A stretch of DNA of 64,000 bases, taken from assembly GCA_023055425.1 (NCBI GenBank), contig JALGPY010000007.1, positions 16,502,001-16,566,000 of the forward strand, written 5' to 3'. The notes beneath the pieces are model-generated. The model did not search any database, had not been told where the DNA came from, and worked only from the letters and a program-made list of their open reading frames with translations. Both the position numbers and the translations under genes were made by a program. The stretch is from Linanthus parryae. Lineage: Eukaryota; Streptophyta; Magnoliopsida; Ericales; Polemoniaceae. This document shows positions 1,508 through 57,356 of the stretch, one piece after another. Positions within the stretch are counted from its first letter, which is position 1. The number at the start of each line of letters is the position of its first letter.

Positions 1508-1569
1508 CTACAGCAAACAGTACAAAATGAAGGCATCAGCATAAGAAAATCAAAAGGCTTAACGCACGC
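1..1569 (+). mobile_element. Element A (Tat-type Ty3/gypsy), left visible part
   Basis: This is internal sequence of an LTR retrotransposon whose 5' LTR, gag and pol lie before the window. It aligns throughout with about 12400-13965 of element B and ends where B is inserted. The interrupted sequence resumes at 17173: the bases before 1570 and after 17177 join into a stretch colinear with B around 13960. The five bases CACGC at 1565-1569 are repeated at 17173-17177 as B's target-site duplication. Orientation (plus) follows from the 3' LTR at 19767-20393. Confidence 0.9.
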
Positions 1570-2195
1570 TGTAGATACTGCTTTATGACATGGCTAATCT
1601 TAGCCACGTGGCGACCATCCAGCACACCATATTGTGCTCCACACACACAGGATCACCAGCCGAGCTGATCCATGTGGGGGCTGCGAGACAGAGCCCTCGC
1701 ATACCACTGCACGGGACTTGTAGGGATTTGTGGTTTGGAGGCTAGGGTAAGCCCTGTCGCGTGCGAGCCAAGCCCGCGCGCGACCTTTAGTAACTGTTTT
1801 GAGAGATCTATGGCACGAGCTCCCTAGACCCGGTCAATCCGGTCAAACCCGGTCAACCTCGTAACGGTTCCGGTACTCGCGCACCACGTGCTCTAACGGT
1901 TCCTATATACTCGGACGAACGTGCCGTTACGGTTAAGCTAATTAAGCCGCCATTAATGGGCGCATTAACTACACTACAACGGCCACGTTCTCCAGTATAT
2001 ATATCGTTACTCTTTCCATACAAAGAGAAGAACAACACTGCCATATGCGGAAGCTCTGCCAAACCTCTGTCTCTCTCTCAGACATTGCTACTGACTTACT
2101 CTCTCCCTACACACACCCCTATTCTTCCTGTGCGATCCCTGATCCACTACGTACGGTGTACACGGAGGTCTCCCTGCCGGAATCTCTTGTGCACA
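1570..2195 (+). repeat. 5' LTR of element B
   Basis: 626 bp, starts TGTAGATACTG and ends TCTTGTGCACA. It matches 16547-17172 with equal length and no difference that I could see, and matches the older element-A LTR at 19767-20393 with scattered substitutions. Confidence 0.95.
1996..2004 (+). promoter_or_regulatory. Probable TATA box of the LTR promoter
   Basis: The run TATATATAT lies about 190 bp before the LTR end and about 240 bp before the gag start codon, a normal place for the U3/R boundary. Transcription would start near 2030. The A copy has an equivalent TATATATAG at about 20194-20202. Confidence 0.5.
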
Positions 2196-2198
2196 TTT

Positions 2199-2216
2199 TG
2201 GTGAACCCGACGTGAA
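2199..2216 (+). other. Primer binding site, tRNA-Trp-like
   Basis: TGGTGAACCCGACGTGAA begins three bases after the 5' LTR. It is complementary to the 3' end of plant nuclear tRNA-Trp as I remember that sequence (ends TTCACGTCGGGTTCACCA). The position is right for a primer site; the tRNA identity should be confirmed against a tRNA set. Confidence 0.7.
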
Positions 2217-2235
2217 CTTACCAGCAAAAGCAACC

Positions 2236-4848
2236 ATGTCTCAGGAGGACGATGTCAGCAACCGATCGCCTTCCGCCGAAACTCCCTCAGGAGAAGAAGT
2301 CCGCCGTACTCCGACGACACCCGGTGAGGCACCGACTTTAGAGTCTTTGGACACCACTGTCCAAAGTCAGGCAAAAACTCTCAAGTCTCAATCCGCGCAA
2401 TTGGAACGGATCTTGGCCATTCTGGGCACCCTTGCGCCAAATCCTCCACCAGGTACCGCCACCCCTCAGGGAGGAGGAACCCCTACTGCTCCAGGATTGG
2501 GAGTATCGGCCACGCCTCCCAACCCTCATCTGCAGACTCCACCGTCGGCCGCGCAGCTGCCTTCGATCCAAGGATCAACAGCGCAAATGCTACCCCCTGC
2601 CGCTCACGCCTCTCAGCCCACGGCTTTGGCGTCTAACCCAACTTTGCAGTACACTCTGCCTCCACCGGCGACCATATGGGGAAACGCGGGCAGTCAATAC
2701 ACTCCCAATCCTCCGGCGGCATATGTGTCGCCACCGCCTACGGCAACCCCTCCGCCAGCTACAGAGGGGAGCATTCCAGAATGCATGACGTCCTTGCAGA
2801 AGCGCGTGGACTCCATCTTGGCTCATCAGTCGCTCGCGGATACCATCATCCCGAAGCTAGACAACGACCCGCCCATTCCACGGGAGATCTATCTCATGCC
2901 TAACCCGGTGGGGTACAAGGCTCCCAAATGGGACAAGTTCGAAGACGTCAATGGAAACGCCCATGAGCATGTCATGCGTTTCATCGATGTCATGGGTCCA
3001 TACGGAGCTGATCCCAAACTGCTGATGCGAGAGTTTCCAAAGACTCTTGGGAATGTAGCATACAAATGGTACCGGACGTTGGAGCCCGGATCCGTGAAGA
3101 CCTGGGACGACATGGTCCAGAAGTTCTACACTAAGTTCTTCCAGATGGAGGAGAAGGTGACGATGATCCATCTCTCGCGGATGTATCAGAAACGCGAGGA
3201 GGATGGGATCACTTTCATCAAGAAATTCAGAGCGAAATCTCTGGAGTGCAAGGATCCCATGCTTGAAAGCCGACTCGTAGAGATATGCCTGCAGTGCATG
3301 CGAGATGAGTACAAGAGCATGCTAATCAATTTGCAAACGCCCACGTTCTCAAAGCTCATCGAGTGCACGATGAACATCGAGCCCATCGTCGAGAGACAGA
3401 GAAAGAAGAGCGCTCCAGAACGACCTGCGAGCGGCACCACCTACAAGATCGGCAGATTCGGCTACAAGCGAGGACGCGAAGCTGAGGTCAACGCGGTTTC
3501 GCCTCAGAAACAAGCAAAAGCCGGAAACTTCGATGCACCGCCTCTGCCATGCTCGGTGGAGGAAGCAAGCGATCTCTGTAGACAGTGGCGTAAAGACGGC
3601 ATCCTGCCACCGCTAGAGCAAAAACCCTCCAAGGAGATGACGAGGGACCCCAAGTGGTGCGAATACCACGGTAAGGTCATGCACCCCACAGCCGAGTGCA
3701 AGAAGCTCAGATTCACGCTCGATCAGAAGATGAAGAGCGGCGAGCTCATCGTCAGCGACCATCGGAAGGATGTGCGCAACAACCCGCTGCCTGCCCATGC
3801 AGATTCGGGCTCAAAAGGCAAAGAGGTCGCCATGATCTCAATAGTGGACTTGGAAGAAGTCGCAGAGGATGGTCTACCCATCATCGCTGAGGTCCATGAA
3901 GATGAAGACTACAGCATGGACACGGAAGATGAGCGTGCCGACCGCATAAAAGGGTCGCACGGCTTCGACAGATTCTTCAACGAGATGAACTTCTCCGAAA
4001 AATGTCGAGCGGACGTGACAAAAGCAATCTTAAGGGTAGCAGAGGACTACGAGGAGGAACTTGTGGTCTCCAACGGGAAGGTCATCAGGGCGTCCCGTCC
4101 CACAGAAAAGATTATGACCTTTTCTGCCAGCGACAAAAAGACAGATGCGAGCCACCAGAGGCCCCTGTACGTGACCGCCATCATCAACGGCGTCGAATTC
4201 AAGCGAGCATTCGTCGATGGAGGAGCAGCGGTCAATGTTGTTCCACTCCACACACTGAAGCTAGCAGGGATCCCCGAGCACAAAGTGGTCAAACGTCCAT
4301 CCCCGCTGGTGGGATTCGGAAGCGACTCTAGAATGACGATCGGATGGATCCGCCTCGGCGTTCAGATTGGTAAGATCAAGTGTTCGGCGAAGTTCTATGT
4401 CATAGATGCGAACACCACATATCACATGATCATCGGTCGAGCCTGGATTCATCGCTTCGACGCAATCCCTTCGACGGCTCACCAGGTGATGAAAGCCATC
4501 TGGAACGACAGGATTGTCGAGATACCGGCCTCAACTAACCCGTTCAACTTGGACGAAGCACATCTCAGCGAGGCGGTGTGGTTCACCGAGATGGCGGACG
4601 AGCAAACACCCGGACCATTCAACCCTACTCCTTTACCTCTCTGGGAGGACATCAAGGACCAGTCACCTGCAGGCGTGATGGTGACAAGGGGAGACACCGA
4701 AGAAAAGCCGCCTACCCACGAAGAGGCGCCGCGCATCGCATATCATCGCAAGAGTGTCTACACTCTGAAGAGGATCGCAAAGCACGACCCCGAGGGCAAG
4801 GAGATAGAAAGCTTCTACGCCAACGGAAAGAAATGCTATCGCATATGA
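2236..4848 (+). CDS. gag: gag-protease polyprotein of element B
   Basis: 870 residues from the first ATG, which lies just past the primer site (the frame opens at 2212 only with a GTG). The N-terminus (about 1-185) is Pro/Ser/Thr-rich and low complexity. A retrotransposon gag capsid region follows at about 215-400, with the W-Y and F-x-x-F motifs typical of gypsy gag. A short Cys/His segment at about 473-490 (C-x2-H ... H-x4-C) resembles the degenerate knuckle seen in Tat elements. The retropepsin-like protease has its active-site motif FVDGGAA near residue 659, with D-G-G in place of the usual D-T/S-G, and the flap-side IIGRAW later on. It ends at a UGA beyond which the same frame stays open through pol. 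Gag packages the RNA and the protease matures the polyprotein. Confidence 0.92.
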   Translation: MSQEDDVSNRSPSAETPSGEEVRRTPTTPGEAPTLESLDTTVQSQAKTLKSQSAQLERILAILGTLAPNPPPGTATPQGGGTPTAPGLGVSATPPNPHLQTPPSAAQLPSIQGSTAQMLPPAAHASQPTALASNPTLQYTLPPPATIWGNAGSQYTPNPPAAYVSPPPTATPPPATEGSIPECMTSLQKRVDSILAHQSLADTIIPKLDNDPPIPREIYLMPNPVGYKAPKWDKFEDVNGNAHEHVMRFIDVMGPYGADPKLLMREFPKTLGNVAYKWYRTLEPGSVKTWDDMVQKFYTKFFQMEEKVTMIHLSRMYQKREEDGITFIKKFRAKSLECKDPMLESRLVEICLQCMRDEYKSMLINLQTPTFSKLIECTMNIEPIVERQRKKSAPERPASGTTYKIGRFGYKRGREAEVNAVSPQKQAKAGNFDAPPLPCSVEEASDLCRQWRKDGILPPLEQKPSKEMTRDPKWCEYHGKVMHPTAECKKLRFTLDQKMKSGELIVSDHRKDVRNNPLPAHADSGSKGKEVAMISIVDLEEVAEDGLPIIAEVHEDEDYSMDTEDERADRIKGSHGFDRFFNEMNFSEKCRADVTKAILRVAEDYEEELVVSNGKVIRASRPTEKIMTFSASDKKTDASHQRPLYVTAIINGVEFKRAFVDGGAAVNVVPLHTLKLAGIPEHKVVKRPSPLVGFGSDSRMTIGWIRLGVQIGKIKCSAKFYVIDANTTYHMIIGRAWIHRFDAIPSTAHQVMKAIWNDRIVEIPASTNPFNLDEAHLSEAVWFTEMADEQTPGPFNPTPLPLWEDIKDQSPAGVMVTRGDTEEKPPTHEEAPRIAYHRKSVYTLKRIAKHDPEGKEIESFYANGKKCYRI

Positions 4849-4889
4849 AGGTGCGCGGGGACGTCCTCACACGGGCATGAGGATGTCCC
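4846..4889 (+). promoter_or_regulatory. gag UGA codon with downstream hairpin: possible stop-codon readthrough signal
   Basis: The gag frame ends in TGA at 4846-4848. From 4849 the same frame is open without another stop to 8586. Nine bases after the stop a strong hairpin can form: arms 4858-4869 and 4878-4889 pair over 12 bp with one G-U wobble and an 8-base loop. A structure 8-9 nt past a suppressible stop is the layout used for gag-pol readthrough in gammaretroviruses. Function here is inferred. Confidence 0.55.
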
Positions 4890-4980
4890 TGGGCAAATCA
4901 ATCAAATCGAGCAAGTTGCGCTGACAAAAGAGCCAACACAGGTCGTTTCGGACGAGAAACTCAAAGAAGCACCCGAATGC

Positions 4981-7900
4981 ATGGAAGACAGGCCGCGACC
5001 ACAAAAGCAAGAGCTAAAGGAGGTGTTCCTCAGCCCGAACGAGGAAAAGAAAAGGCCAGTCTTCCTGAGTGCGGACCTCACAAGCGACGAGGAACAAGGG
5101 CTGCTACAGCTTCTAACTGAATACAAGGACGTATTCGCATGGGAATACGATGAAATGCCAGGTCTGGACACGAGCATCACCATGCACCGTTTAGACGTCA
5201 TCCCAGGGTCTAAACCGGTCAAGCAAAGCACCAGAAGCTTTAGGCCAGAGCTCAATGTGAAGATCAAACAGGAGATTGTTAAACTCCTAGATGCCAAGTT
5301 CATAGAGCCCAATCACCATCCCACATGGTTGGCCAACATCGTGCCAGTGGTGAAGAAGAACGGACAGCTCCGCATCTGCGTGGACTTCCGCGATCTCAAT
5401 CGCTTCTGCCCTAAGGACGACTTCCCACTGCCTAACATTGATTTGCTCATTGATTCAACAGCAGGCCATCGCATGTTCAGTTTCATGGACGGCTTCAGCG
5501 GGTACAATCAAATCAAGATGGATCCCGAAGATGCAAGGAAAACTGCATTTATCACTCCCGTGGGGGTATTTAACTACACGGTAATGCCGTTCGGTCTTAA
5601 GAACGCAGGGGCAACCTATCAGCGGGCTATGATGGCCCTATTCCACGACATGATGCACAAAGAGGTGGAATTCTATGTGGATGACTTGGTAGTCAAATCC
5701 AAGCACGAAGCAGATCACCTTGCAGACCTGCGAAAGGTGTTCAACAGATGCAGAAGCTTTCAACTAAAAATGAACCCCATGAAATGCGCATTCGGCGTAA
5801 CTTCGGGAAAGTTTTTGGGATGCGTGGTTCATCGCCAAGGGATCGAGCCTGACCCTGCGAAAGTGTCAGCCATCACCAGCATGACGCCACCTCACAACCA
5901 AAGCGCCTTGAAAACATTCTTGGGAAAATTGTCATATCTGCGGAGATTTATCCCAGCAATCGCTGAAATCACATGCTGTTTCAGCACTCTTCTCAAGAAG
6001 GACGCCGCGTACAACTGGGCTCCTGACCATGAAGCCGCATTCGAAAAGCTAAAGGAGATACTTACATCCCCAAAGATCATGATCGCGCCTCAACTGGGAT
6101 CACCGCTGCTGCTATATCTTACATCAACAAGGAGATCTATAGGAGCACTTTTGGCTCAGGTGTATGAGGGCCAAGAGAGGCCTATCTATTACATCTCTCG
6201 CATCGTACAGCCTGCTGAGTCAAGGTACACAGACATCGAACGTCACTGCCTTGCCTTATTCTTTGTGATAGAGAAGTTGAGACACTATTTTGCATCGCAC
6301 AAAGTAGTGGTGGTCACCAAAAGCGACCCCATAAGATACTTGCTAACTCACACTACTCCGGGCGGGAGATTGGCGAAATGGTACATGACCATCTCTCAAT
6401 ACGATGTCACATGCGTGAAGCCAAGGGCGATCAAGTCGCAGGCGGTAGCAGATCTGCTGGCACAGTTTCCCGACAACAGCCACGAACCTGTGATCGAAGA
6501 AGAGCTCGAAGGCCCTGAAATCTACGCGATCGACGTGCCCTATTGGACCCTCCACTTCGACGGTTCGTCAACCAGAAAAGGTGGAGGCATTGGGATAGTC
6601 TTGACAAAGCCCGATGGGGAAGTCATACAGATGTCCGCGAAACTCAACTTCGCAGTCACGAACAACGAGGCGGAATACGAAGCTCTTATCGCGGGGCTCC
6701 GTGCAGCGAAAGCTCTGGAAGTGAGCAACTTAACAGTCATGGGAGACTCCAAGCTGATTGTTAAGCAAGCCTCGGGCGAGTATGGTCTGAAGGAAATCAA
6801 CCTCCTGTCATACCGCACTCTAGTGCAAAAGCTGATGCAGCAATTCTGCGACGTGAAATACGAGCACAAGCCCCGAGCGGACAACAGGCATGCAGACGCC
6901 TTAGCAACCCTGGGATCTAAGGTCAGCATAGACAAATGCCCCGCGAGGATTTCCATCGAAGTGCGAACATCGTCGGCATTAACAGAAGATGCGTGCGACG
7001 ACGAACACGTAGATGACGCAGATTGGCGAAAAACAATCCTGCAAGCTATTGCGAAAGGCACCAGCAGCGAGAGCTGGGCACTCACGAAAGGATACTGCAT
7101 CCACGACAATACCCTTTACTACAAGGGTCCTGGAGGGATACTCATGCGATGTGTCTCCGAGCAAGAGGGACAACAGCTGTTAGAAAGGATTCACCAACAC
7201 GCTTGCGGAGAAAGCGAGGTGTCAATCTACAGGAAAGCTCAGAGATATGGCATTCATTGGCCAGGCATGTCAACAGCTGCAGCCCTGATACAAGGGAAGT
7301 GCGAGAGTTGCGCACTAATCAAAGATTCTCTACTTGTCGCTCCAATCGATGACGACACAGACTGGAGGAAGCCATTGTTCGAATTCCTCACCCAGGGTAC
7401 CGTACCCGAATCGAGAAAAGAGGCCGACAAATTGAGAAGGAAAGCTTCTCGATACGTGGTTCAGGAAAACCTGCTTTGGCGAAAAGGCCACGAGGGCAAC
7501 TTGCTGCGATGCCTAGACGATAGGGAAGCACAAGAAGTCATGAACCTCTCTCATCAGGTGGAACACCAGGGAGGTGCGAAATTGTGCAGACAGCTCCTCT
7601 CAATCGGATACTTCTGGCCCACGATGGAAGCCGATTGCCGCACCAAGGTGCGACGCTGCCAAGAATGTCAATTCAAAGGGAACCTAGTGCACGCTCCCGC
7701 CGTGGATCTACATGCATTAGGGACGCCATGGCCATTTCACACATGGGCTTTGGATTTCATTGGCCCCATCCGACCAACGTCACATGGGAACCATTTCATT
7801 CTCACCGCAACTGAGCTGTTCACCAAATGGGTGGAAGCAATACCACTAAAGACGGCAAACGCGCTGGCTGTGGTCAACTTCATCCAGGAAAACATCGTAT

Positions 7901-8586
7901 GCAGGTTCGGAATCCCGAATACTATTCTTTCAGATAACGGTACTCCTTTTGTTAATCGTCAGGTAGCCACGAAACTTGCGGAGTACAATATCAGGCAAAT
8001 ATGCTCTACTCCCTATTATCCAAAGGGAAACGGACAAGCCGAGGCGACTAACAAAACGCTGCTGAGAATTCTGAGCAAGATGGTCGCAGATGACCACAAG
8101 AAGTGGGCCGATTCTCTTAACATAGCTCTGTGGGCCTACAGGACCTCTCCAAGAACACCCACAGGGGCTTCGCCATTTCTATTATGTTATGGGGCCGAAG
8201 CTGTAGTACCTGCGGAGGTCAGAGTCAATTCGGCACGGCTGGCCTTCCATGCGCTCTATGAAAATCAACGCGATCACGATTTAGTCTTGCTAGAAGAAAA
8301 GCGAGAACAAGCCAAAAAGACTAACAAGCGGTACCAAGAAAGAATCGCTCGCGCCTACAACAAGACAGTTCAGCGGCGAGATTTCGCAGTTGGCGACCTG
8401 GTCTTGCGCGCGTCCGACCACTGCATGCGAGAAGCGACTCATCCGAAGTTCGCAGCCAACTGGGAAGGACCCTTCGAAGTCACAGAAGTCTTCGATAGTG
8501 GCTACTGCAGCATACGAAGGTTGCACGGCTCAGCCTCAACTCCGAGCTCAGTCAACATGCGCTGGATCAAGAAGTACTATCCTTGA
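4981..8586 (+). CDS. pol: pol polyprotein of element B (RT, RNase H x2, integrase)
   Basis: 1201 residues from the first ATG; the frame is open from 4849, so the product is probably made as a gag-pol fusion by reading through the UGA. Reverse transcriptase covers about 80-330, with the catalytic YVDD at 232-235 and MPFGLKNAGATYQR before it. A first RNase H-like region (about 360-470) has lost its leading Asp (LYLTSTRRS). A second, archaeal-type RNase H at about 520-650 keeps Asp, Glu, Asp and Asp (LHFDGSS, NNEAEYEAL, VMGDSK, NRHADALA), the hallmark of the Tat lineage. Two tandem H2C2-like modules follow (about 678-785 and 790-900); only the second has good zinc ligands. The integrase core has D925, D985 and E1021 (35 residues apart), then a GPF-type C-terminal module. 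No internal stop was seen. Confidence 0.93.
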   Translation: MEDRPRPQKQELKEVFLSPNEEKKRPVFLSADLTSDEEQGLLQLLTEYKDVFAWEYDEMPGLDTSITMHRLDVIPGSKPVKQSTRSFRPELNVKIKQEIVKLLDAKFIEPNHHPTWLANIVPVVKKNGQLRICVDFRDLNRFCPKDDFPLPNIDLLIDSTAGHRMFSFMDGFSGYNQIKMDPEDARKTAFITPVGVFNYTVMPFGLKNAGATYQRAMMALFHDMMHKEVEFYVDDLVVKSKHEADHLADLRKVFNRCRSFQLKMNPMKCAFGVTSGKFLGCVVHRQGIEPDPAKVSAITSMTPPHNQSALKTFLGKLSYLRRFIPAIAEITCCFSTLLKKDAAYNWAPDHEAAFEKLKEILTSPKIMIAPQLGSPLLLYLTSTRRSIGALLAQVYEGQERPIYYISRIVQPAESRYTDIERHCLALFFVIEKLRHYFASHKVVVVTKSDPIRYLLTHTTPGGRLAKWYMTISQYDVTCVKPRAIKSQAVADLLAQFPDNSHEPVIEEELEGPEIYAIDVPYWTLHFDGSSTRKGGGIGIVLTKPDGEVIQMSAKLNFAVTNNEAEYEALIAGLRAAKALEVSNLTVMGDSKLIVKQASGEYGLKEINLLSYRTLVQKLMQQFCDVKYEHKPRADNRHADALATLGSKVSIDKCPARISIEVRTSSALTEDACDDEHVDDADWRKTILQAIAKGTSSESWALTKGYCIHDNTLYYKGPGGILMRCVSEQEGQQLLERIHQHACGESEVSIYRKAQRYGIHWPGMSTAAALIQGKCESCALIKDSLLVAPIDDDTDWRKPLFEFLTQGTVPESRKEADKLRRKASRYVVQENLLWRKGHEGNLLRCLDDREAQEVMNLSHQVEHQGGAKLCRQLLSIGYFWPTMEADCRTKVRRCQECQFKGNLVHAPAVDLHALGTPWPFHTWALDFIGPIRPTSHGNHFILTATELFTKWVEAIPLKTANALAVVNFIQENIVCRFGIPNTILSDNGTPFVNRQVATKLAEYNIRQICSTPYYPKGNGQAEATNKTLLRILSKMVADDHKKWADSLNIALWAYRTSPRTPTGASPFLLCYGAEAVVPAEVRVNSARLAFHALYENQRDHDLVLLEEKREQAKKTNKRYQERIARAYNKTVQRRDFAVGDLVLRASDHCMREATHPKFAANWEGPFEVTEVFDSGYCSIRRLHGSASTPSSVNMRWIKKYYP

Positions 8587-8838
8587 CTCCTCTTATTTCA
8601 TACGTTTTATGATAACGTTGCTTAATATCTCATGTGGCTACGATTAATGCAATCTCCTCTCCCATATGAGAGGATTGTAATTCTACCTCTCCCATATGAG
8701 AGCGATGTAATAAAAGAATTCTCCCAAATGAGAAGTTCATATTTCTAGCCGCTTATATTGCTCTATTTTATTTAAATATCTCCGTTAACAATGATTCATT
8801 CGCTGCAAATAGCAATTCATGCAAGCACGATCTTTATT

Positions 8839-9378
8839 GATCATCAAAGCCTATCTCATACGATAGCAAACGCGATCTCAAGCGATCATCAAAGCCTATC
8901 TCATACGATAGCAAACGCGATCTCAATCGATCATCAAAGCCTATCTCGTACGATAGCAAACGCGATCTTAACTGATCATCAAAGCCTATCTCATACGATA
9001 GCAAACGCGATCTCAAGCGATCATCAAAGCCTATCTCATACGATAGCAAACGCGATCTCAAGCGATCATCAAAGCCTATCTCATACGATAGCAAACGCGA
9101 TCTCAATCGATCATCAAAGCCTATCTCGTACGATAGCAAACGCGATCTTAACTGATCATCAAAGCCTATCTCATACGATAGCAAACGCGATCTCAAGCGA
9201 TCATCAAAGCCTATCTCATACGATAGCAAACGCGATCTCAAGCGATCATCAAAGCCTATCTCATACGATAGCAAACGCGATCTCAATCGATCATCAAAGC
9301 CTATCTCGTACGATAGCAAACGCGATCTCAACCGATCATCAAAGCCTATCTCATACGATAGCAAACACGATCTCAATC
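8839..9378 (+). repeat. Tandem array, 12 x 45 bp with 180-bp higher-order period
   Basis: Twelve 45-bp units begin GATCATCAAAGCCTATCTC. Each contains CTATC-TCATAC-GATAG, a short hairpin. Variant units recur in a fixed order of four, giving a 180-bp higher-order period that repeats almost exactly three times. Because 45 is divisible by 3 the array is open in several frames on both strands (213- and 180-codon frames); I treat these as by-products. Tandem repeats after pol are a known source of satellite DNA in Tat elements. Confidence 0.93.
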
Positions 9379-10136
9379 GATCATCTAAAGCCTATCTCTT
9401 ACGATAGCAGCTGCACGCGAGTGCGATCTTAAGTGATCATCTAAAGCCCATCTCCTACGATGGCAGCCAATGCAAATGCGATTTTCAGTGATCATCTAAA
9501 GCCTATCTCTCATGGTAGCAATCAAATGCAAATGCGATCTTAAGTGATTATCTAAAGCCTATCTCTCACGGTAGCAATCAAATGCAAATGCGATCTTAAG
9601 TGATCATCTAAAGCCTATCTCTCATGGTAGCAATCAAACGCAAATGCGATCTTAAGTGATCATTAAAGCCTATCTCTTGCGATAGCAACCAAACGAAAAT
9701 GCGATCTTAAATGATCATCCAAAGCCTATCCTTTGCGATAGGAGCGAAATACAAAATGATCTCAATCGATCATCTAAAGCCTATCTATAGAAGATAGCAG
9801 GTTCTACAGATGCGATCTTATAATGGTCTTCTTAAGCCTATCTATTACGATAGCAATTTCTACGCAAAGTAATTTTGGTGAATTACCCAAGCCCGCCTGT
9901 TATGATGGCAACGTACGTGCAGAATCATTTTATTAGATCTTCCAAAGATCTATCTGCTGTGATAGCAGTTTATGCGAGAAACGATCTCAAACAAAGCCTA
10001 TCTTCTCTGATAGCAATTTGCATGGCTCAACGATCTTGATTAATCTCTGGAAAATTATCCGAAACGATGGCAACGTTGTGAACGTGATCTCATACGATTT
10101 ACAACGACCAACTATAAGCCCATCCGTCAAGATGGC
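9379..10136 (+). repeat. Degenerate continuation of the hairpin repeat array
   Basis: About 14 diverged units of 50-60 bp. They keep the order GATCATC-(T)AAAGCC then a CTATC...GATAG-type hairpin, while the spacers differ. In many units both hairpin arms changed together (for example CCATC with GATGG), so pairing outlives the sequence. It looks like the older part of the array from which the 45-bp block was amplified. Confidence 0.75.
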
Positions 10137-11136
10137 ACAGCTGCAAAATTACGATCTTAAATGATCTAGCGAAACGTCTGCGAATTGACATCGCATATGA
10201 GAAATCATTACAAGGAATTATGCAAGGCAAAACAAGCCGAAACGCATGCGAAATTGTATTTTGTTGCAAAGAACAGATAATACAAGAGCTATTTATCATT
10301 ATGAGTCAAATGACTTACAATTTATCTATCTAGATAGCAGCTTACAAGCGAAAAGCTCGCATCTAACTACACAGCCAATATGGCTTACAATACATTCGAA
10401 AAATGGCTGACAAGCCAGAAATGCGCCAAGGGAACTCTCGACTAAGAAAAGAGAGAATCCACCGGTCCTGACACCGGCAGCACAGTACGCAGATCTGAGG
10501 CCAAAGATCTGTAGCAAGTAGGATGCTTATGCGAAGAGATCAACTCGCCATTCGCTACGTCCCTGGCAGCAAGATCTGGGTGATGCTACGTCCAAGATCT
10601 CAGGATCCGACAGCTCCCCTGTCTGATCAAGATATGTACCAGAGGAACCACCTGTTCCGGCGTATGCAGTCGTGCAAAACAGGGGAAGCGGTCATTCCTC
10701 TGGTACTAGGCTCCTTGTCATGATAGACAAGGGCGTTGGCGAGCCTCCTGAGTTCAAGAACGAAGAGGCAGGAAACTCTCCTCCGGAGATGCTGGAGGAG
10801 AATCACGCCGTTCATTACGAGACGGTAGCACGGTCACTACGGCGCTGCACCTCGCCACGAGGCGGCCGGAAACATGACCTGCACACATAATACACGAAGA
10901 AATTTCTTCGAACACACATGAGGTATTATCTGCATCCTCTTTATGACGGTTATAAACGGCAATGAGCCTCATAAAGTGGATCTTGGAAACTATTTCTATG
11001 GCACAAAGCGCAAACTCAGGATTCAAAGCCTGAAGTTGCCATGAATCAACGAAAAACAAGCGTTGAAGCCAGCAGTCGTAGGGACTCACGGCAAAGCACA
11101 TGTTTGGGATGAAGAACCCAAATGACAAAGGCAGGG
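10137..11136. other. Non-coding interior of element B
   Basis: Sequence between the repeat array and the antisense gene. It still holds scattered AGATCT and GATAG-like motifs up to about 10650. Apart from the weak antisense frame at 10754-11101 I see no coding signal. Confidence 0.5.
10754..11101 (-). CDS. Small antisense reading frame, hypothetical
   Basis: 115 codons from the ATG at 11101 (an upstream in-frame ATG at 11128 would give 124). A canonical TATATAAA on the same strand lies at 11137-11144, only about 40 bp upstream, which fits a transcript with a very short leader. I recognise no domain: the product has Cys-containing hydrophobic stretches, then a Ser/Arg/Pro-rich tail. It may be non-coding. 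It is noted because a clean TATA box faces it and because it follows the larger antisense gene on the same strand. Confidence 0.2.
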   Translation of the reverse strand: MCFAVSPYDCWLQRLFFVDSWQLQALNPEFALCAIEIVSKIHFMRLIAVYNRHKEDADNTSCVFEEISSCIMCAGHVSGRLVARCSAVVTVLPSRNERRDSPPASPEESFLPLRS

Positions 11137-11144
11137 TTTATATA
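11137..11144 (-). promoter_or_regulatory. Possible antisense TATA box
   Basis: TATATAAA read on the minus strand in a CCTATATAAACC context, a near-ideal plant TATA box inside the non-coding part of B and pointing away from the long antisense gene. Confidence 0.3.
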
Positions 11145-11567
11145 GGCTCTGTGGAGACTCTTCGGTTGCTTAAGATGAGTCAGCAAATTCAAAAAGAGGG
11201 TAAGTTCAATCACTTACGCCTTGAAAAACGGTAACAATCAATTACCCTACTAAAGGCTACGACGATTCGGTTGCGTATCCTAATAAATGACGGATAGTCA
11301 TGATTCGGATGGACTTCCCAACGGAAGCGTGCTTATCTGCCGAGAAATTAGCGCGAAAATCAAGCAAAGAATCAATTGCTGATGTCATAATTGGATATGC
11401 ACAGAAAATGTCCAATCAAATCCCGAAAAGGGCAAAACGGGCAAAATCATTGTTTGTTGTCAAAAAAGAGGGGGGAGAAACCCTAGCAACATTACATTAA
11501 TGTTTCAAAGCATTACATTAATGTCTCAGCCATTTTCCTTTCTTTTCAAAAAAAAAAAAGAGAAAAG

Positions 11568-14500
11568 TCAAAACAAATTTTTGACTAAGGAGTCCTGGGG
11601 CTCGAACTGCTCGATCAGCCTCTCCACTTGTTGCACTTCTTGCTTTAGCTGCTCGCACTTGGCATTCATTTCGTCATACAGCTTCAAAGCTTCATCAACC
11701 TTTTGCTTCTGCTGCTCCACCTTCTGCATCTCCGCTGCGAGATTCTGGTGCCCGAGATTCAAGGTTACAGCTGCGCGAATCAGTGTAACTCTGTCCTTGA
11801 GGAATTTCAAACCAAGTCTGCCTTGGACTTTGAGCACGAGATTTTGGCACATGCCACACAGCAATTCAGCACTCTGGGCCGAGATGGTCGCAGGTGTAGC
11901 CGCACACAGCTGTTCCAGTATCCAAATGGCTTCAGTAAGGAATAGCCTCCTGTCAAAAGGAACGATCTCCAGACACCTCACGAACGAGCGGGGGTATCTG
12001 AGGCGCATTCGAACCACCCAGTCCACATCGGTTTGCTTCAAACCTGAGACATCAAAAACGAGTTGTAATGTCAGAACTCGCAAGCAAATAATATGACGTG
12101 CGAATGGTAAATCTCTACTTACCAGTGCCTTCCAGAATTTGGTGAATAGAGGGAATGCGAGCCACCGGGTTGTTCAAAGACTGCCCTCGCTCCATGGCTC
12201 TCCTATCAGCTGCGAGCTCCAGCCTCTCATAGTCAGGAGGAAGACTGTAGGCCGCACCAGCTGCGACTACGTTCCCAACCTGCGAGCCCCAAATGCTCCA
12301 CGCAGGAATAGGTGCTTCCGGCTCAGTCATTGACGGAGACACAGGAACAGCCGAAGTCGTTGGGCGAAAGACATTCTCAGGTGCGAAAACATTAGCATCA
12401 CTTGTCCTTTCTTCCCCACCACCGGTACGGACACCTTCGTCCATCGGCACAGCATCAGCTTCGACATCGTCGGAGAGCTCGATGACATCCTCGAGACGCT
12501 CACTTACATGTCCAGCGTCCGCGACGGGCTTCTCAGTATGAGAGCTCGAGATTGGAACATGGGATGCAGAAGGCTGACTTCTCTGCTCCAGCTCAGGTTC
12601 CTCAGCATGACCTGCGATACCAAATGCGACAATATGAGGTAACTTGTGTTATAAGTTATTTCACTATCTTTGCTAAAGCTAAGAATAAGCACCTCCACGC
12701 GAAGGTGGGATTAAGGTATCCTCATCGTATACTAGGGACGTGGAACCGTGCCCTATCAGTGTATCTTCACTAAGCAAATCTTTAAGAGAAGCGTGACCTG
12801 GGACGCAAGTAAACCAGTCATGATTTTGCCTCAAGTGGCTACAGCCTAGCATGCGCGTATTACTCAAAACAATTACCTGAGGGTTCTCCGCATTTGCTTA
12901 CCAACCAACGGCGAATGTCAGGCTTTGACACACCGTGCTTTAACGCACCCACAATTACATCTCTATAAGTAACTGCGAGATTGAAGATCTCACCTTTATC
13001 GCCACCTGCGATCTCTGCGAAGTCCGCTTGGACTTGCTCTAGCTCTGCTGTGTCCTCTTCAGGAACCTCATCTTCCTCCTCCACATGAGGAGCCACTTCT
13101 TCGGGAAGCTCGTCTTCCTCGCCAGTTGGACGCGCTAAGTCGTCAACATGCCGCTCCTCGAGGCTCCGCTGTTTCACAAGCTCGAGCTCCTCTTCCTCTC
13201 GCTGCCTTCTTCTCGCAGCAGCCTCCGCGGCTGTCTTCCGGGATTCAGCAAGAATATCCTCGCTTATGGGATCATCTGAAACGCTAGCATGGGCATTTCT
13301 CTTTTGCCTCTTGGCCACAAGGCCACCAACGGCTTCATCATCATCACCTGCGGATATACAATTGGTTCAAAGAAAAGAACTGCATAGAAGTCATGATAAA
13401 GGACAAGAAAATGCGGCGGAAGTACCTCCTGACTCTTCCTCGCGCATTACAACTGTTCCTTCTTCTTCTCCGTTACTTGCCTGGGGCTCCTGCCTCTCTT
13501 CCTCTTCCTCTTGGTTGAATGGAACGAAGGTCTCGACTGCGAGATCTTTTCGCACCTTGCCGGGCATACGACCCTTACCTTTGTCCTTGACAGAAAGGGA
13601 CCTCGCTGGGGGCGAAGCCGGAGCGCTCCTAGGGGAAGAAATCGTAATCCCCTTTTGCCTAGGCCTCTTCGCTCTCGGCGCCGCAGTCGCTGGAGGGGAC
13701 GGATCATCTCTAGGAGGAGACGGAGCCGGAGGGTTGTCTATCAGCGAGTCAGCAAAAGTGTTCATGACCCCGCGAACTTTTGTTTCGACCTCGGCATCCA
13801 TCCTCCATGCTAGCCGATACGACTCCCCCCTTCTTCTGGTCGCAACAATGGTATCCACCAGCGATTTGGAACGGTCACCAGCTGCGAACCTCCGCACATG
13901 ACACTAGACAATACAGAACAAAAGCATCAGTGCAAGCAAATCAAAGAGCTCGAAGCACACAAGGAAACTGCTTACCTCAGCAAACGCCTTGCTATATTTG
14001 ATGACCTGCGTGTCACCCTTCTTGATTGCATCGACCTGCTCCTTCAGAATGAAATCGGGGCACAAATGATTCTCGCGGTCCAACAACGAGTAGCAACCGT
14101 ACTCAGACTCGCTCAAACTGCAATTGGGGCGAAACGGAAAAGAGTTTCTCTTGATCAAGGGGGCCCTTCCTGGCTGCGCCGCCGCTTCCGTCTCCATCCT
14201 CGTATGCTGGGCAATCCAGTATGCGATCCAATTCTGGGAACAACCACCCCTGCGAGTTCCCGCAGGCTGCTCAAAGGGAAGATTGCTCATAAGGACCGTC
14301 TTGCATTCCTTTGTCAGCAAGCGCTTGTAGCACCCTCTAACGATGGACTGGGGCCAGATTGATGGGGCCACCGCATCGAAACCAAACTGAGGAGAGACCC
14401 GAGTGGGGTCAACATCCACTGTAAGCCTTTCATATCGTGGCGCGAGCTCACGAATATGCTCTGCAAGTGCAGGAAGAGAACCTCGCAGACACCAGCAAAA

Positions 14501-15856
14501 GAACTCACGATAGCGCTCGTGGAAATGCGATCCCTTCTCAAAGAGAAGGTCTTCTGACAAGACCATACCCTCGGAGGGGTATAGCTTCGGAAACCACCGC
14601 ACATTCTCAATACGTGTGGCGTAAGGCCTGGCAGTGAACTCCCTTCGCTTGTCGCATATCAAGCTCCAAGTACACTTGGTGTTGCTTGCACCAAACCATC
14701 TCGCAGCCCTTCCGCTGTTGAGCGCTTTCGTCTCGCCTGGGGGACACCACTTCTCAAGTGGGAGGGGAGTTGGAGCATAAGACGGCCAACGCTCGAACAC
14801 CCACATTGTCAAAAAGCTGATATTGACAAAGGTCAGAACATCGAGGCGGCCACGCGATTCCCTCATCGCCAGAACCAGCTGATCCAGCCTGTAATATAGC
14901 GTGCCCAAGACCAAGGGTCCAAGTGCAACTCTCTGGCCAAGAGCGAGCCTCACCGCAAGTGGCAGCACATGGTAGAAGACCCCATCATGGGGGTGACCAT
15001 CAATCAGAAATCTCGACAGCCAAGCACAAAGAAAGGCGCAAAGGGTCAAATGATAACCCTTGCCCTCTACGTAATTCTCGGCCTCCGGGTCCTCGCTCAA
15101 AAGCTTCTTAGTAATGCTGCTGCCCGCATAGTCTCGGAAGAAGTACTGCAACCATTTGTTCCAGGTATTCTTCGCAGACGTATCAACCAGCTGCCAGTTC
15201 GGAAGAGGTTTTGTGCTGGTCCACCGAGTGGAGATTTTCTTCACCTCTGCTAAGCACTCCTCCATCTGCGCGTACAAGGCTAATTCCGCAGATGTCCTTA
15301 AGTGACTCAAGGGGTCCACCTCGCCCATGGGGGAAAGCTCATACAGCATTTGAACGTCCTCGAGCGTGGGGGCAGCCTCGAACTCAGCAAAATGAAACGT
15401 GTGAGTCGCAGGCGAATAGCGGGACAGAAGGTCTAGAAGCATGGACTGATCCAACTTCACGGCAGCACCCTTCATAGCACGAACAGCGAAGAAAATGCCG
15501 GCTTCATCAAGAGTTTCGGCGTAATTACCCAACACGTGGTCAGTCCACTCATCCATATAGTCCAACTTCTGGACAAACGCCTGAGTAGAAATCGCAGTGT
15601 ATGGGAAGTGCCCGTTCTCGATTCCCAATCGAACCACATCCTCAGAGCCAACTAACTCGAGCAAGGCTGAGTTAACTGGGCGAGTCAGGGTTAACAACTG
15701 CTCAACGGGAACAGGATCAGGCATCCTCTTCGCCTTCACCCTCGCGTGGTAAAAATCTTTCCCACCCAGAAAGGGGGCTTTTCGCCACAGAGACCGCGGA
15801 AGCTCCGGCATCTCTTCATCTTCCTTGACAGGTCTGGTTACTCTCGTTTTGGCCAT
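11568..15856 (-). CDS. Antisense six-exon gene of element B, plant-mobile-domain-like protein
   Basis: Coding exons, minus strand: 15856-13976, 13903-13426, 13347-12877, 12797-12693, 12611-12123, 12043-11568. All introns are GT..AG and 72, 78, 79, 81 and 79 nt long; phases are 0,1,1,1,1. Exons sum to 3900 nt, 1299 residues plus stop, with no internal stop. Exon 1 (residues 1-627) resembles the plant mobile domain (PMD) of MAIN/MAIL1 and of some gypsy and Mutator elements: THTFHF at 151-156, then PTLEDV, and later W-rich segments. Exon 2 has a basic KRPRQKG stretch (possible nuclear signal) and an acidic run. Exons 3-5 are Glu/Ser-rich. Exon 6 ends in a Gln/Glu/Lys coiled coil. The same architecture is present in element A. 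Function unknown; PMD proteins act in silencing and RNA processing, so a role against host control is only a guess. Confidence 0.82.
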
Positions 15857-15858
15857 TC

Positions 15859-16121
15859 CTGCGAAAGGGCAAAAAAAAAAGGGGGGAGAAATACCACACC
15901 AGTCAGTTTGAATTTTGAATTCGAAACTTATGCAAAGGAATGCAAACAGTTCCGGTGCCGATTCCAGAAATTGGGTAATTGCAAGATCCAATATCGTCGA
16001 AAGAGTAAAGCGAAGCGGGATTAAAGATCAAAACCTCTTCACAGATTCCATGGGTTTACAGATTCAACGCAGTTCAAGGCAAACGCCGGTACTTTAAAAT
16101 CAAAAAGTAAACGAGGCCAAC
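15859..16121 (-). other. Probable 5' UTR intron of the antisense gene
   Basis: Just before the antisense ATG a pyrimidine-rich run ends in TTTCGCAG at 15859, a good 3' splice site. A donor AAG|GTTGGC at 16121 would give an intron of 263 nt. Element A keeps both sites and the same 263-nt spacing (19338-19076). The donor is weaker than the coding-exon donors, so the exact 5' end is uncertain. Confidence 0.5.
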
Positions 16122-16275
16122 CTTGTTTCCTTGAAGCCTGCTTGGATATGCACAGTTGAAGAATACGATTTGCAGTCTTGAACAGATGATTGATTATTTG
16201 GATCTGCTCTCGAAGATCTCCGGGTACCATTCACTTTAAGAGAAAGAAGCAATGCCTTGCAATGATGGGATACAA

Positions 16276-16286
16276 GGTATTTATCC
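16276..16286 (-). promoter_or_regulatory. Candidate TATA-like element of the antisense gene
   Basis: GGATAAATACC on the minus strand, upstream of the inferred 5' UTR exon and outside the LTR. Element A has the same core at about 19496-19505. If real, the antisense gene has its own promoter rather than borrowing the LTR. Confidence 0.3.
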
Positions 16287-16530
16287 AAAAGAATGAAGGG
16301 TTGCGTCCCTTCAGTAGTCGAATCGCAACCGTCACCGTCGTGTCGCGCAATCACAGGACGGGCTGACGTCACGCCTAAAACCCTAAAGGTCAGATGGCAC
16401 GACTCTAGGGGTTTTAGGTCATAATTACACGCACGGGGGCTGAATCTACCCGTATTTGAATTGGTACGTGACGACGACGCGCATATTGGTTTCCGCGCAT
16501 GGAAGCCTATACAGCTACAAGCCTTCACGC

Positions 16531-16543
16531 GCAGAAAGGGGGC
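16531..16543 (+). other. Polypurine tract of element B
   Basis: GCAGAAAGGGGGC three bases before the 3' LTR; same motif at 19751-19763 in element A. It primes plus-strand DNA synthesis. Confidence 0.8.
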
Positions 16544-16546
16544 TAA

Positions 16547-17172
16547 TGTAGATACTGCTTTATGACATGGCTAATCTTAGCCACGTGGCGACCATCCAGC
16601 ACACCATATTGTGCTCCACACACACAGGATCACCAGCCGAGCTGATCCATGTGGGGGCTGCGAGACAGAGCCCTCGCATACCACTGCACGGGACTTGTAG
16701 GGATTTGTGGTTTGGAGGCTAGGGTAAGCCCTGTCGCGTGCGAGCCAAGCCCGCGCGCGACCTTTAGTAACTGTTTTGAGAGATCTATGGCACGAGCTCC
16801 CTAGACCCGGTCAATCCGGTCAAACCCGGTCAACCTCGTAACGGTTCCGGTACTCGCGCACCACGTGCTCTAACGGTTCCTATATACTCGGACGAACGTG
16901 CCGTTACGGTTAAGCTAATTAAGCCGCCATTAATGGGCGCATTAACTACACTACAACGGCCACGTTCTCCAGTATATATATCGTTACTCTTTCCATACAA
17001 AGAGAAGAACAACACTGCCATATGCGGAAGCTCTGCCAAACCTCTGTCTCTCTCTCAGACATTGCTACTGACTTACTCTCTCCCTACACACACCCCTATT
17101 CTTCCTGTGCGATCCCTGATCCACTACGTACGGTGTACACGGAGGTCTCCCTGCCGGAATCTCTTGTGCACA
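16547..17172 (+). repeat. 3' LTR of element B
   Basis: 626 bp, same length as 1570-2195 and read as identical to it. Followed by CACGC (17173-17177), the repeat of 1565-1569. Confidence 0.95.
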
Positions 17173-17192
17173 CACGCGGAGAAATTGCTTAC

Positions 17193-19073
17193 CTCAGCAA
17201 ATGCCTTGCTGTATCTGACGACATGCGTATCGCCCTTCTTAACTGCGGCGATCTTATCCTTCAGAATGACATCAGGACACAAGTGGTTCTCGCGATCCAA
17301 CAGTGAGTAGCAACCATACTCAGACTCGCTCAGACTGCAATTAGGGCGAAACGGAAAAGAGTTTCTTTTGATCAAGGGAGCTCTACTTGGCTGCGCGGCC
17401 GACTCCGTCTCAATCCTCGTTTGCTGGGCAATCCAGTATGCGAGCCAGTTCTGGGAACAACCACCCTCGCGAGTTCCCGCAGGCTGCTCAAAGGGAAGAT
17501 TGTTCATGAAGACCGTCTTGCACTCCTTTGTTAGCAAGCGCTTATAGCACCCTCTGATAATGGACTGGGGCCAGATTGATGGGGCCACCGCATCAAAACC
17601 GAACTGAGGAGAAACTCGAGTGGGGTCAACGTCCACGGTAAGATTTTCATACCTTGGCGCGAGCTCACGAATATGCTCTGCGAGGGCAGGAAGGGAACCT
17701 CGCAGACACCAGCAAAAGAACTCGCGGTAGCGCTCATGGAAATGCGGTCCCTCTTCGAAGAGAAGCTCTTCTGAGAAGACAATACCTTTAGAGGGGTACA
17801 ACTTTGGAAACCATCGCACGTTCTCAATACGCGTGACATAGGGCCTGGCAGTAAACTCCTTCCGTTTGTCGCATATCAAACTCCAAACGCACTTGGTGTT
17901 GCTTGCTCCGAACCATCTCGCAGCTCTTCCGCTGTTGCGCGCTTTCGTCTCGCCTAGGGGACACCACTTGTCAAGTTTGAGAGCAGTTGGAGCATAAGAC
18001 GGCCATCGCTCGAAAACCCACATTGTCAAAAAGGAAATATTGACAAAAGTCAGTACATCGAGGCGGCCACGCGACTCTTTCGTGGCTAGAACCAGCTGAT
18101 CAAGCCTATAGTACAGCGTGCCCAAGACCAAGGGTCCAAGTGCGACTCTCTGACCAAGGGCGATCCTCACAGCAAGTGGCAAAACATGGTAGAAGACCCC
18201 ATCATGTGGGTGACCATCAATCAAGTACCTCGACAACCAAGCACAGAGAAAGGCACAAAGGGTCAAGTGATAACCTTTACCCTCTACATAATTCTCGGCC
18301 TCTGGGTTCTCACTCAGGAGCTTCTTAGTGATGCTGCTGTTCGCATAGTCTCGAAAGAAGTACTGCAACCATTTGTTCCAGGTGTTCTTCGCAGACGTAT
18401 CAACCAACTGCCAGTTCGGAAGAGGCTTTGTAGTGGTCCACCGGGTGGAGATTTTCTTTACCTCTGCTAGGCATTCCTCCATCTGTGTGTATAAAGCAAT
18501 CTCCGCAGATGTCCTCAAAGGACTCAAAGGGTCCACTTCGCCCATGGGAGAAAGCTCGTACAGCATTTGCACGTCCTCGAGTGTGGGGGCAGCCTCGAAC
18601 TCAGCAAAATGGAACGTGTGAGTCGCAGGCGAGTAACGGGACAGAAGGTCTAGAAGCATGGACTGATCCAGCTTCACGGCAGCACCCTTCATAGCACGGA
18701 TAGCAAAGTATACGCCGGCTTCATCAAGAGTCGCGGCGTGATGGTCCAAGACGTGGTCAATCCACTCATCCATATAGTCCAATTTCTGGACGAACGCCTG
18801 GGTAGAAATCGCAGTATAGGGGAAGTGCCCGTTCTCGATTCCCAATCAAACCACGTCCTCGTAACCAATCAACTCGAGCAAGGCTGAGTTAACTGGGCGA
18901 GTCAGCGTCAGCAATCGCTCAACCGGGACAGGATCAGGCATCCTCTTCGCCTTAACCCTCGCATGGTAGAAATCTTTGCCGCCTAAATAGGGGGCTTTTC
19001 GCCACAAGGCCTGCGGAAGGTCGGGTATCTCTTCATCTTCCTTGGCAGGTCTGGTTCCTTTTGTCTTGGCCAT
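17193..19073 (-). pseudogene. Antisense gene of element A, exon 1 (nonsense mutation)
   Basis: Starts at the ATG at 19073 and ends at the donor GAG|GTAAGC at 17193. Its length is 1881 nt, identical to B exon 1, with no net indel. One CGA arginine codon has become TGA at 18846-18848 (a C-to-T change in a CpG), stopping translation after about 75 residues. The rest is open as a 573-codon frame. It encodes the same PMD-like region as B. Element B lies inside the following intron (after 17177), so exon 1 is cut off from exons 2-5 by 15.6 kb. Confidence 0.85.
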
Positions 19074-19506
19074 TCCTGCGGAAGAGCAAGAAAAAAAAAG
19101 GGGGAGAAGTACCACACTTCAGTTTGAATTTTGAAATTCAAGATCTATGCAAAGGAAAACGAACAGTTTCTGGTATCAATTTCAGAAATCAGGGAGTTGC
19201 AAGATCCCATATTGTTGAAGGATTAAAGCAAAAGTGGGTTCCAAGATCAAAGCCTCTTCACAAATTCCATGGGTTTACAGATTCAACGCAGTTCAAGGAA
19301 AAAGCTGGTATCTTAAATCAAAACTAAACGAGGCCAACCTTGTTTTCTTGAAGCCTGCTTAGATATGCACAATTGAAGAATACGATTTGCAGTTCTGAAC
19401 TGGTGATTGATTATCTGAATCTGCTCTCGAAGATCTCCGGGTACCATTCACTTTAAGAGAAAGAAGTGATGCTCTGCAATAATGGAGGATACAAAGTATT
19501 TATCCA
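19074..19506 (-). other. Leader and putative promoter of A's antisense gene
   Basis: Same layout as 15857-16290 in B: splice acceptor GCAG at 19076, donor AAG|GTTGGC at 19338, and a GGATAAATAC motif at about 19496-19505. Conservation of these sites in an older copy supports the model in B. Confidence 0.4.
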
Positions 19507-19766
19507 AAAACAATGAAGGGTCGCGTCCTTTCAGTAGTCGAATCGCAACCGTCACCGTCGAATCGCGCAATCACAGGACAAGCTGACGTCACGCCTAAAA
19601 CCCTAGAAGCCAGACAGCACGACTCTAGGGGTTTTAGGTCATAATGGCACGCACGGGGGCTGAACTTACCCGTATTTGAATTGGTGCGTGGCGGCAACGC
19701 GTATGTTGGTTTCCGCGCATGGAAGTCTATGCAGCTATGAGTCTTCACGCGCAGAAAGGGGGCTAA

Positions 19767-20393
19767 TGTAGATAGTGCTTTCTGAGCTGACAGATCTTGG
19801 CCACGTGGAAACCATCCAGCACACCATATTGTGCTCCACACACACTGGATCACCAGCCGAGCTGATCCATGTGGGGGCTGCGAGACAGAGCCCTCGCATA
19901 CCGCTGCACGGGACTTGTAGGGACTTTGTGGTTTGGAGGCTAGAGTAAGCCCTGTCGCGTGCGAGCCAAGCCCGCACGCGACCTTTAGTAACTGTTTTGA
20001 GAGATTTATGGCACGAGCTCCATAAACCCGGTCAATCCGGTCAAACCCGGTCAACCTCGTAACGAATCCGGTATTCGCGCACCACGTGCTGTAACGGTCC
20101 CTATATACTCGGACGAACGTGCCGTTATGGTTAAGCTAATTAAGCCGCCATCAATGGGCGCATTAACCACACTACAACGGTCACGTTCTCTGCTATATAT
20201 AGGGCGTTACCCTTTCCATACAAAGGAGAACACACTGGCCATACGCGGAAGCTCTGCCAAACATCTGTCTCTCTCTCAGACATTGCTACTGCCTTACTCT
20301 CTCCCTACACACAACCCCACTCTTCCTGTGCGATCCTTGATCCACTACATACGGTGTACACGGAGGTCTCCCCGCCGGAATCTCTTGTGCACA
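19767..20393 (+). repeat. 3' LTR of element A
   Basis: 627 bp, begins TGTAGATAGTG and ends TCTTGTGCACA, preceded by the polypurine tract GCAGAAAGGGGGC. It differs from B's LTRs at many sites. Confidence 0.93.
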
Positions 20394-24253: not shown

Positions 24254-24254
24254 T

Positions 24255-24265
24255 CCTTCCCCTTA
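24255..24265 (-). other. Polypurine tract of element C
   Basis: AAGGGGAAGGA on the minus strand next to the 3' LTR, the expected position for plus-strand priming. Confidence 0.6.
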
Positions 24266-26410: not shown

Positions 26411-26422
26411 GCTCCAATACCA
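26411..26422 (-). other. Primer binding site of element C, degenerate tRNA-iMet type
   Basis: TGGTATTGGAGC on the minus strand, two bases inside the 5' LTR. It differs at two positions from the common plant site TGGTATCAGAGC. Confidence 0.6.
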
Positions 26423-26424
26423 CC

Positions 26425-57249: not shown

Positions 57250-57356
57250 CCAGCCCCACACACATCTCATATCATCAAACACAATCCCATGTTATTGAAT
57301 CCCAACTAGCCCTCTCTCATATCAACAAAGGAGAGAAAATTTTATCAGAACCAACC

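Follow-up and report, generated by a model that had tools for sequence, protein, structure and literature searches.

A 64,000-nucleotide stretch of Linanthus parryae DNA (assembly GCA_023055425.1, contig JALGPY010000007.1, positions 16,502,001 to 16,566,000 of the forward strand; hereafter the window, to which all coordinates refer) contains a 15.6 kb long terminal repeat (LTR) retrotransposon at 1570–17172 that carries, wholly inside its borders and on the minus strand between pol and the 3′ LTR, an intron-rich gene for a plant mobile domain (PMD) protein, antisense to gag-pol. Judging from the sequence, we consider it very probable that the gene is spliced, is maintained by selection and encodes a protein that acts on behalf of the element carrying it. 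As such, it would be an accessory gene of a Ty3/gypsy retrotransposon of the Tat lineage. Antisense open reading frames (ORFs) in Retand-type elements and PMDs in gypsy/Tat elements are already known (PMC11963269, PMC6317226, PMC5418596), in agreement with the mention of antisense frames of Tat elements in the first-pass annotation of this DNA; the new part is the intron-rich structure of the antisense PMD gene.

That annotation proposed six minus-strand coding exons, joined at GT..AG sites in phases 0, 1, 1, 1 and 1 to give 1299 codons and a stop, and this model was reproduced (Table 1). A dynamic-programming search for the longest parse (GTA or GTG donors, pyrimidine-rich AG acceptors, introns of 65–210 nt), run unaided, returned 1299 codons with five introns on the minus strand, and thus recovered the coding length and intron number (the route itself was not printed). 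Under the same rules, the longest parse is 597 codons on the plus strand and at most 432 in 14 further strand-stretches of the window matched in length, and 40 dinucleotide shuffles of the gene region reach at most 440 (mean 313); these shuffled parses, taken with the codon-level selection described below, rule out a chance ORF. An intron-blind ORF list shows the gene as five separate ORFs of at least 150 codons. Looser rules (any GT, introns up to 300 nt, extension upstream) produce parses of 1352–1433 codons that have most borders in common with the six-exon model. Parse length does not fix every border, and we therefore argue the borders from conservation.

The comparison needed for this is provided by an older copy of the same family, whose antisense gene is interrupted in intron 1 by the insertion of the young element. 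Over 1047 codons, the two copies differ with a synonymous rate (dS) of 0.466 and a nonsynonymous rate (dN) of 0.064, giving dN/dS = 0.137, and each covered exon taken separately has a ratio of 0.10–0.24 (about 0.19–0.20 in exon 2; Table 1), not near 1. Placing the changes at random (300 placements) gives a ratio of 0.63, with a minimum of 0.46, and a context-preserving null, in which the same changes fall on trinucleotide-matched sites (1000 runs), gives 0.53, with a minimum of 0.37. Two stop codons are observed where 9.1 are expected (two or fewer in 1 of 1000 runs), and the differences at codon positions 1, 2 and 3 number 82, 69 and 247, the last being 247 of 398. By these measures the antisense protein is under purifying selection, and the true selection is if anything stronger, because dN/dS also includes changes that the older copy gained as it decayed (its exons contain two in-frame stops and a 1-bp insertion). 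In exon 1, moreover, no frame but the antisense one is open: each of the remaining five has 11–36 stops per copy, and among them the plus frame whose third codon positions lie opposite those of the antisense frame has a ratio of 0.19 but 25 and 24 stops in the two copies.

The borders follow the same pattern. Introns 1–4, together with the intron 0 proposed below, have GT and AG intact in the older copy, and local alignment places only two indels, one of 1 bp and one of 3 bp, in the 3259 exon bases that could be aligned, against ten, none a multiple of three, in 562 compared intron bases including intron 0. The first-pass claim that introns are retained in two copies therefore stands for these five introns, with the qualification that the second copy is decayed. 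The tail of exon 3 (12993–12877) could be removed as intron through a GTGAGA donor, yet 37 of its 39 residues are identical between the copies and its dN/dS is 0.09; a short exon 3 (intron 12993–12798) is not preferred, as the tail is constrained as coding, although alternative splicing may occur there.

While the six-exon frame itself holds, the start of the gene probably lies one exon further up than first proposed. An exon 0 beginning at ATG 16230 joins in phase to exon 1 at a conserved acceptor (...CGCAG) just before the ATG of the six-exon model. Between the copies, this exon shows seven synonymous and two nonsynonymous differences (dN 0.024, dS 0.383) and no indels, whereas its other two frames show chiefly nonsynonymous change and one stop each; intron 0 (263 nt) is 15.1% divergent, with seven indels, none a multiple of three. 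We favor the seven-exon form (1336 codons) because of the synonymous bias and absence of indels in exon 0, the indels in intron 0 and the conserved GT and acceptor, and regard it as probable rather than settled because the donor, GTTGGC, is weak.

The seven-exon product would be an acidic protein of 1336 residues (150 kDa, isoelectric point 5.6). The PMD-type region proposed from the letters alone was borne out by profile search: PF10536 matches exon 1 at residues 127–498 of the 1299-residue form (90.4 bits against a gathering cutoff of 34.9, E = 1.7e-25), spanning profile positions 5–292 of 347, and matches the older copy's piece at 93.9 bits. The PMD is followed by a proline-rich and basic stretch containing KRPRQK, then by acidic runs, and then by a helical-looking C-terminus, which in exon 6 appears coiled-coil-like by eye and has only subthreshold Pfam matches; KRPRQK is a putative nuclear localization signal, and a second basic cluster, KRQKR, is also present. 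A homologue search with the protein returned none at E ≤ 0.001 among 7992 scored candidates, a PDB sequence search with exon 1 gave no match at E ≤ 1, and there was no match in viral contigs.

The carrier has the features of an LTR retrotransposon: identical LTRs with TG..CA ends, a 5-bp target-site duplication (TSD), a site resembling a primer binding site, and a polypurine tract. The insertion is recent, since the two LTRs are identical, and the LTRs and TSD bracket the gene, confirming its proposed position inside the element. Retrotrans_gag is matched in the gag-protease ORF above the Pfam cutoff (29.4 bits), with the protease matches below theirs, and pol gives Pfam matches in the order RVT_1, RT_RNaseH, RVT_3/RNase_H (at about 567–689), Integrase_H2C2 and rve. 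The Tat clade is defined by reverse transcriptase (RT), RNase H (RH) and integrase (INT) plus an additional RNase H, which lies between RH and INT in angiosperm Ogre and Retand (Neumann et al. 2019, PMC6317226). Because the extra RNase H of this pol sits between RH and integrase, the element is by its domain order a Ty3/gypsy element of the Tat clade, with the angiosperm Ogre/Retand arrangement. The Retand marker TRP28 (PF04195), which the first-pass annotation had also suggested seeking, has no match in the joined antisense protein at E ≤ 1. Of the Ogre-type features, the extra ORF with a PMD is present, but is seen in 57% of Ogre elements and is hence no strict marker (PMC6317226), and the intron-like spacer between gag-protease and pol is not present, the frame being contiguous apart from one TGA at 4846–4848. 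This TGA, in an otherwise single gag-protease/pol frame, could be a recent mutation or a stop that is read through; no other copy of the junction region was found within the window.

How the gene might persist and act can be outlined as follows. Retrotransposition would copy the introns unspliced, because their splice sites are present in the genomic RNA only as the reverse complement; this follows from the rules of splicing and reverse transcription, so the earlier argument that antisense orientation lets the introns survive is sound, and it fits the two copies. A separate minus-strand promoter, of which the conserved TATA-like box at 16285–16278 is a candidate, would make an mRNA that is spliced. 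With less support, the protein would enter the nucleus (by its basic clusters, and by analogy with the nuclear antisense product of Grande) and would act in trans to make the element itself more successful; that the protein served the element is implied by the purifying selection seen between insertions. In the host, the PMD proteins MAIN and MAIL1 act with PP7L in the silencing of transposable elements (TEs) (PMC7156037, PMC8616336, PMC5418596), and TE-encoded PMDs have been proposed to be a counter-silencing strategy (PMC8616336, PMC5418596), with the same speculation made for PMDs captured by Mutator-like elements (MULEs). Our leading guess, which we hold tentatively and at less than even confidence, is that the protein interferes with, or mimics, this MAIN/MAIL1–PP7L pathway. 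Since TE silencing in the host involves PMD proteins, the conflict proposed between host and element PMDs becomes directly testable with an intact PMD gene carried by an element.

Several observations weigh against the reading of this locus as a spliced and selected accessory gene. The older copy is the sole comparison copy and is itself decayed, and the window starts inside its exon 5, so that the comparison ends within this exon, with 276 of its 489 bases outside it, as are intron 5 and exon 6. A low ratio is also shown by one plus frame in exon 2 (0.28, with 1 + 1 stops) and in exon 3 (0.38, with 2 + 1 stops); we read it as a shadow cast by the antisense frame, which has the lower ratio and, in the young copy, is open. 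The dS of 0.47 is far above the divergence of the introns (18%), the leader and the LTRs (6.6%) and has no simple explanation; template switching between subfamilies, or constraint on the LTR and leader, is possible. The looser parses diverge at the 5′ end and around exons 3–4, so that other 5′ routes exist, and to these is added the weak donor of intron 0. Splicing of the predicted introns is inferred from their conserved sites and the open frame. Finally, an AlphaFold model of exon 1 from the single sequence is uninformative (mean predicted local distance difference test score, pLDDT, of 35).

The most probable alternative is that the protein restrains its own element, through copy-number control or MAIN-like repression, instead of opposing host silencing. 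Host PMD proteins do repress TEs, and purifying selection alone does not separate help from restraint; however, self-restraint is, by reasoning, hard to maintain by selection in an element lineage unless it lowers harm to the host, and we consider this alternative unlikely.

We find it distinctly unlikely that the protein is instead a Rev-like or packaging regulator that binds a hairpin array in the genomic RNA beside its own gene. The array follows closely downstream of pol, ahead of the 3′ end of the antisense gene, and holds 27 units whose arms have no more than two mismatches and one more (9893–9908) found through its flanks, for a total of about 28. Each unit has 5-bp arms around 6 nt (7 nt in one), with the arm variants CCATC/GATGG and CTCTC/GAGAG. 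Covariation was assessed in 18 of the 30 listed units (ten near-identical 45-bp repeats, the unit with the 7-nt spacer and one probable chance match were set aside), of which one (10322–10337) is located past the end of the main array. All but one of the 18 were picked by arm similarity, which favors pairing, and the units are related by duplication. With these limits, the plus strand pairs in 98.8% of cells, four cells are changed on both sides (reached by 1 of 500 shuffles), and the covariation score is reached by none of 500, while two stricter measures, pairs changed on both sides and further pair types, are not beyond the shuffles (reached by 58 and 56 of 500, respectively). All six one-sided changed cells are G·U in the plus strand and would be A·C in the minus strand, and on the plus strand the diverged part of the array (9405–10150) has a better fold than any of 20 shuffles (z = −3.79), compared to z = −0.56, with 6 of 20 shuffles equally good, on the minus strand. 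As these G·U cells and the folding excess are confined to the plus strand, they point to hairpins in the genomic RNA. Vicient has likened the antisense products of such elements to retroviral Tat and Rev, which also speaks for a Rev-like role; however, no RNA-binding domain was matched in the protein by Pfam, and the array might simply result from tandem expansion or act with a different factor. Rfam returned no match on 8580–11560 at E ≤ 0.1.

Any link between the array and the antisense protein is a guess by analogy with VANC proteins and their repeat targets. We regard it as quite unlikely, though somewhat less so than the Rev-like role, that the locus forms a complete module for counter-silencing or RNA control, in which an antisense gene with its own promoter and a spliced mRNA encodes a nuclear PMD protein, and this protein recognizes the covarying array of about 28 hairpins (as RNA, or as DNA palindromes). 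If true, the element would supply both factor and target, shielded from intron loss by orientation. A strong TATA-like box, CCTATATAAACC, lies at 11146–11135 on the minus strand, downstream of the antisense gene and aimed at the array; no credible coding gene was found beyond it. A second antisense gene in 8590–11300 (best parse 382 codons with six introns, under the looser rules) is not supported, because shuffles of the neighboring gene region reach 440 codons under stricter rules.

If the element had recently captured a host PMD gene, introns included, this would account for the genic look of the introns and TATA-like box, but we consider it very unlikely, since two copies with a dS of about 0.47 have the same structure as far as they are comparable, and the PMDs of gypsy elements group into separate clades in Ikeda et al. 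(PMC5418596). Equally improbable is the usual string of separate Retand-type antisense ORFs with no splicing: the Retand survey does list 104 antisense ORFs in representative elements (in a table of 63 clusters), obtained with ORF Finder (PMC11963269), but here dN/dS stays low along the joined frame across five exons, and indels are concentrated in the stretches bounded by conserved GT and AG sites. Least probable of all is that the antisense RNA, not the protein, matters, as double-stranded RNA with the genomic RNA that limits or tunes the element: antisense transcripts can feed small interfering RNA (PMC7264820) and PMD genes in tea coincide with 175 PHAS loci (PMC10673657), yet a role of the RNA predicts no codon-position bias, unlike the third-position excess found here, and such RNA may act alongside the protein rather than instead of it.

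Among the known systems closest to the accessory gene are the Retand antisense ORFs (Grande gene23, RIRE2), which likewise lie between pol and the 3′ LTR in a region with tandem repeats (PMC11963269, PMC7264820). Grande gene23 is reported to have its own promoter and a nuclear product (PMC7264820). In the Retand lineage, an antisense ORF with TRP28 (PF04195) is reported in 97% of clusters; the present gene differs in having a PMD in place of TRP28 and six or seven exons, and the region between pol and the 3′ LTR measures 7960 bp compared to 2933–6566 bp in the Retand survey (PMC11963269). That survey used ORF Finder, and such a gene would therefore be split into fragments. The word "intron" does not occur in the main text of PMC11963269 or PMC7264820. 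Ogre elements share the Tat clade, a PMD (PF10536) in an extra ORF and the second RNase H between RH and integrase (PMC6317226), but have about 274 bp between gag-protease and pol (an intron, as shown in two species) where this element has a single in-frame TGA. The gypsy-encoded PMD-A1/A2 clades likewise place a PMD on a Gypsy element (Ikeda et al. 2017, PMC5418596), in a paper whose main text contains neither "intron" nor "antisense". Host MAIN and MAIL1 share the PMD, but are standalone PMD proteins that are described without the long acidic and helical tail present here (PMC7156037). A 2025 review describes plant LTR elements as generally without introns, with Ogre and EVADE as exceptions (PMC12786077), and among the papers listed by the literature searches none was seen to describe a plant LTR element with an antisense gene rich in introns; Gomez-Orte 2013 and Steinbauerova 2011 may say more.

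Further afield, the HBZ gene of human T-cell leukemia virus type 1 (HTLV-1) is also an antisense accessory gene of a retroelement, with its antisense promoter inside the 3′ LTR. The main HBZ mRNA is spliced, and the HBZ protein is unrelated to the antisense PMD product. VANDAL elements are not LTR elements, and their VANC proteins belong to a different protein family. What they share with the present element is the combination of an element-encoded factor with rapidly diverging tandem repeats in noncoding DNA (PMC5735166, PMC10398659).

A selected, intron-rich antisense gene would represent a route around intron loss that is invisible to ORF-finder surveys. Splice-aware reannotation of Tat antisense ORFs could turn fragments into real genes; if the complete module outlined above exists, many of the "multiple antisense ORFs" of Tat elements would be exons of such genes.

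Table 1. Features of the young element, its antisense gene and the older copy, given as window positions.
Feature	Positions	Strand	Basis or remarks
Older copy, part 1 (part of exon 5 to intron 1)	1..1569	−	blastn, tblastn, alignments; about 85% identity
5′ LTR	1570..2195	+	626 bp, TG...CA; exact match to 16547–17172; TSD CACGC
Putative primer binding site, TGGTGAACCCGACGTGAAC	2199..2217	+	Begins 3 nt past LTR; read from sequence
gag + aspartic protease ORF	2236..4845	+	Open from 2143; first Met (MSQEDD) at 2236
Single in-frame TGA separating gag-protease from pol	4846..4848	+	Junction read in translation
pol (RT, RNase H, second RNase H, integrase)	4849..8586	+	Pfam matches
Tandem hairpin array, CTATC-N6-GATAG	8657..10140	+	Tandem Repeats Finder (TRF); 45-bp units, then about 56-bp units
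Exon 6, last coding, ends TGA	11568..12043	−	Six-exon join; outside older copy's cover
Exon 5	12123..12611	−	dN/dS 0.21 over 70 covered codons
Exon 4	12693..12797	−	dN/dS 0.12 over 35 codons
Exon 3, long form	12877..13347	−	dN/dS 0.24
Exon 2, basic then acidic, with KRPRQK (putative nuclear localization signal)	13426..13903	−	dN/dS 0.20; composition
Exon 1, with PMD	13976..15858 (15856 = start in six-exon model)	−	PF10536 match; dN/dS 0.10 over 626 codons
Intron 0, proposed	15859..16121	−	Donor GTTGGC, acceptor ...TTTCGCAG; GT and AG kept in older copy
Exon 0, proposed first coding exon	16122..16230	−	ATG 16230; 109 nt = 36 codons + one base
TATA-like box, GATAAATA	16278..16285	−	About 50 nt upstream of exon 0 ATG; identical in both copies (alignment); putative promoter
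Polypurine tract, AAAGGGGGCTAA	16535..16546	+	Read from sequence
3′ LTR	16547..17172	+	626 bp; then TSD CACGC
Older copy, part 2 (rest of intron 1, exon 1, exon 0, leader, 3′ LTR at 19767–20393)	17173..20393	−	88.6% identity

Elsewhere in the window, direct repeats at 21553–28917, about 5.12–5.15 kb apart and 92–95% identical, enclose a gypsy-type gag fragment (25186–25677, minus strand) and probably represent a degraded LTR element. A copia-type gag ORF (46841–48325) lies between direct repeats that are 100% identical (46082–46381 and 48374–48673), and this locus is probably a short, young, gag-only copia element. RING-finger ORFs are present on the minus strand at 44916–45491 and 48753–49400, with related repeats at 30735, 33779 and 50533; these five direct repeats are 62–93% alike and are probably tandem RING-H2 genes or fragments. 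Two neighboring EF-hand ORFs (57249–57920 and 59687–60298) form an apparent tandem duplication.

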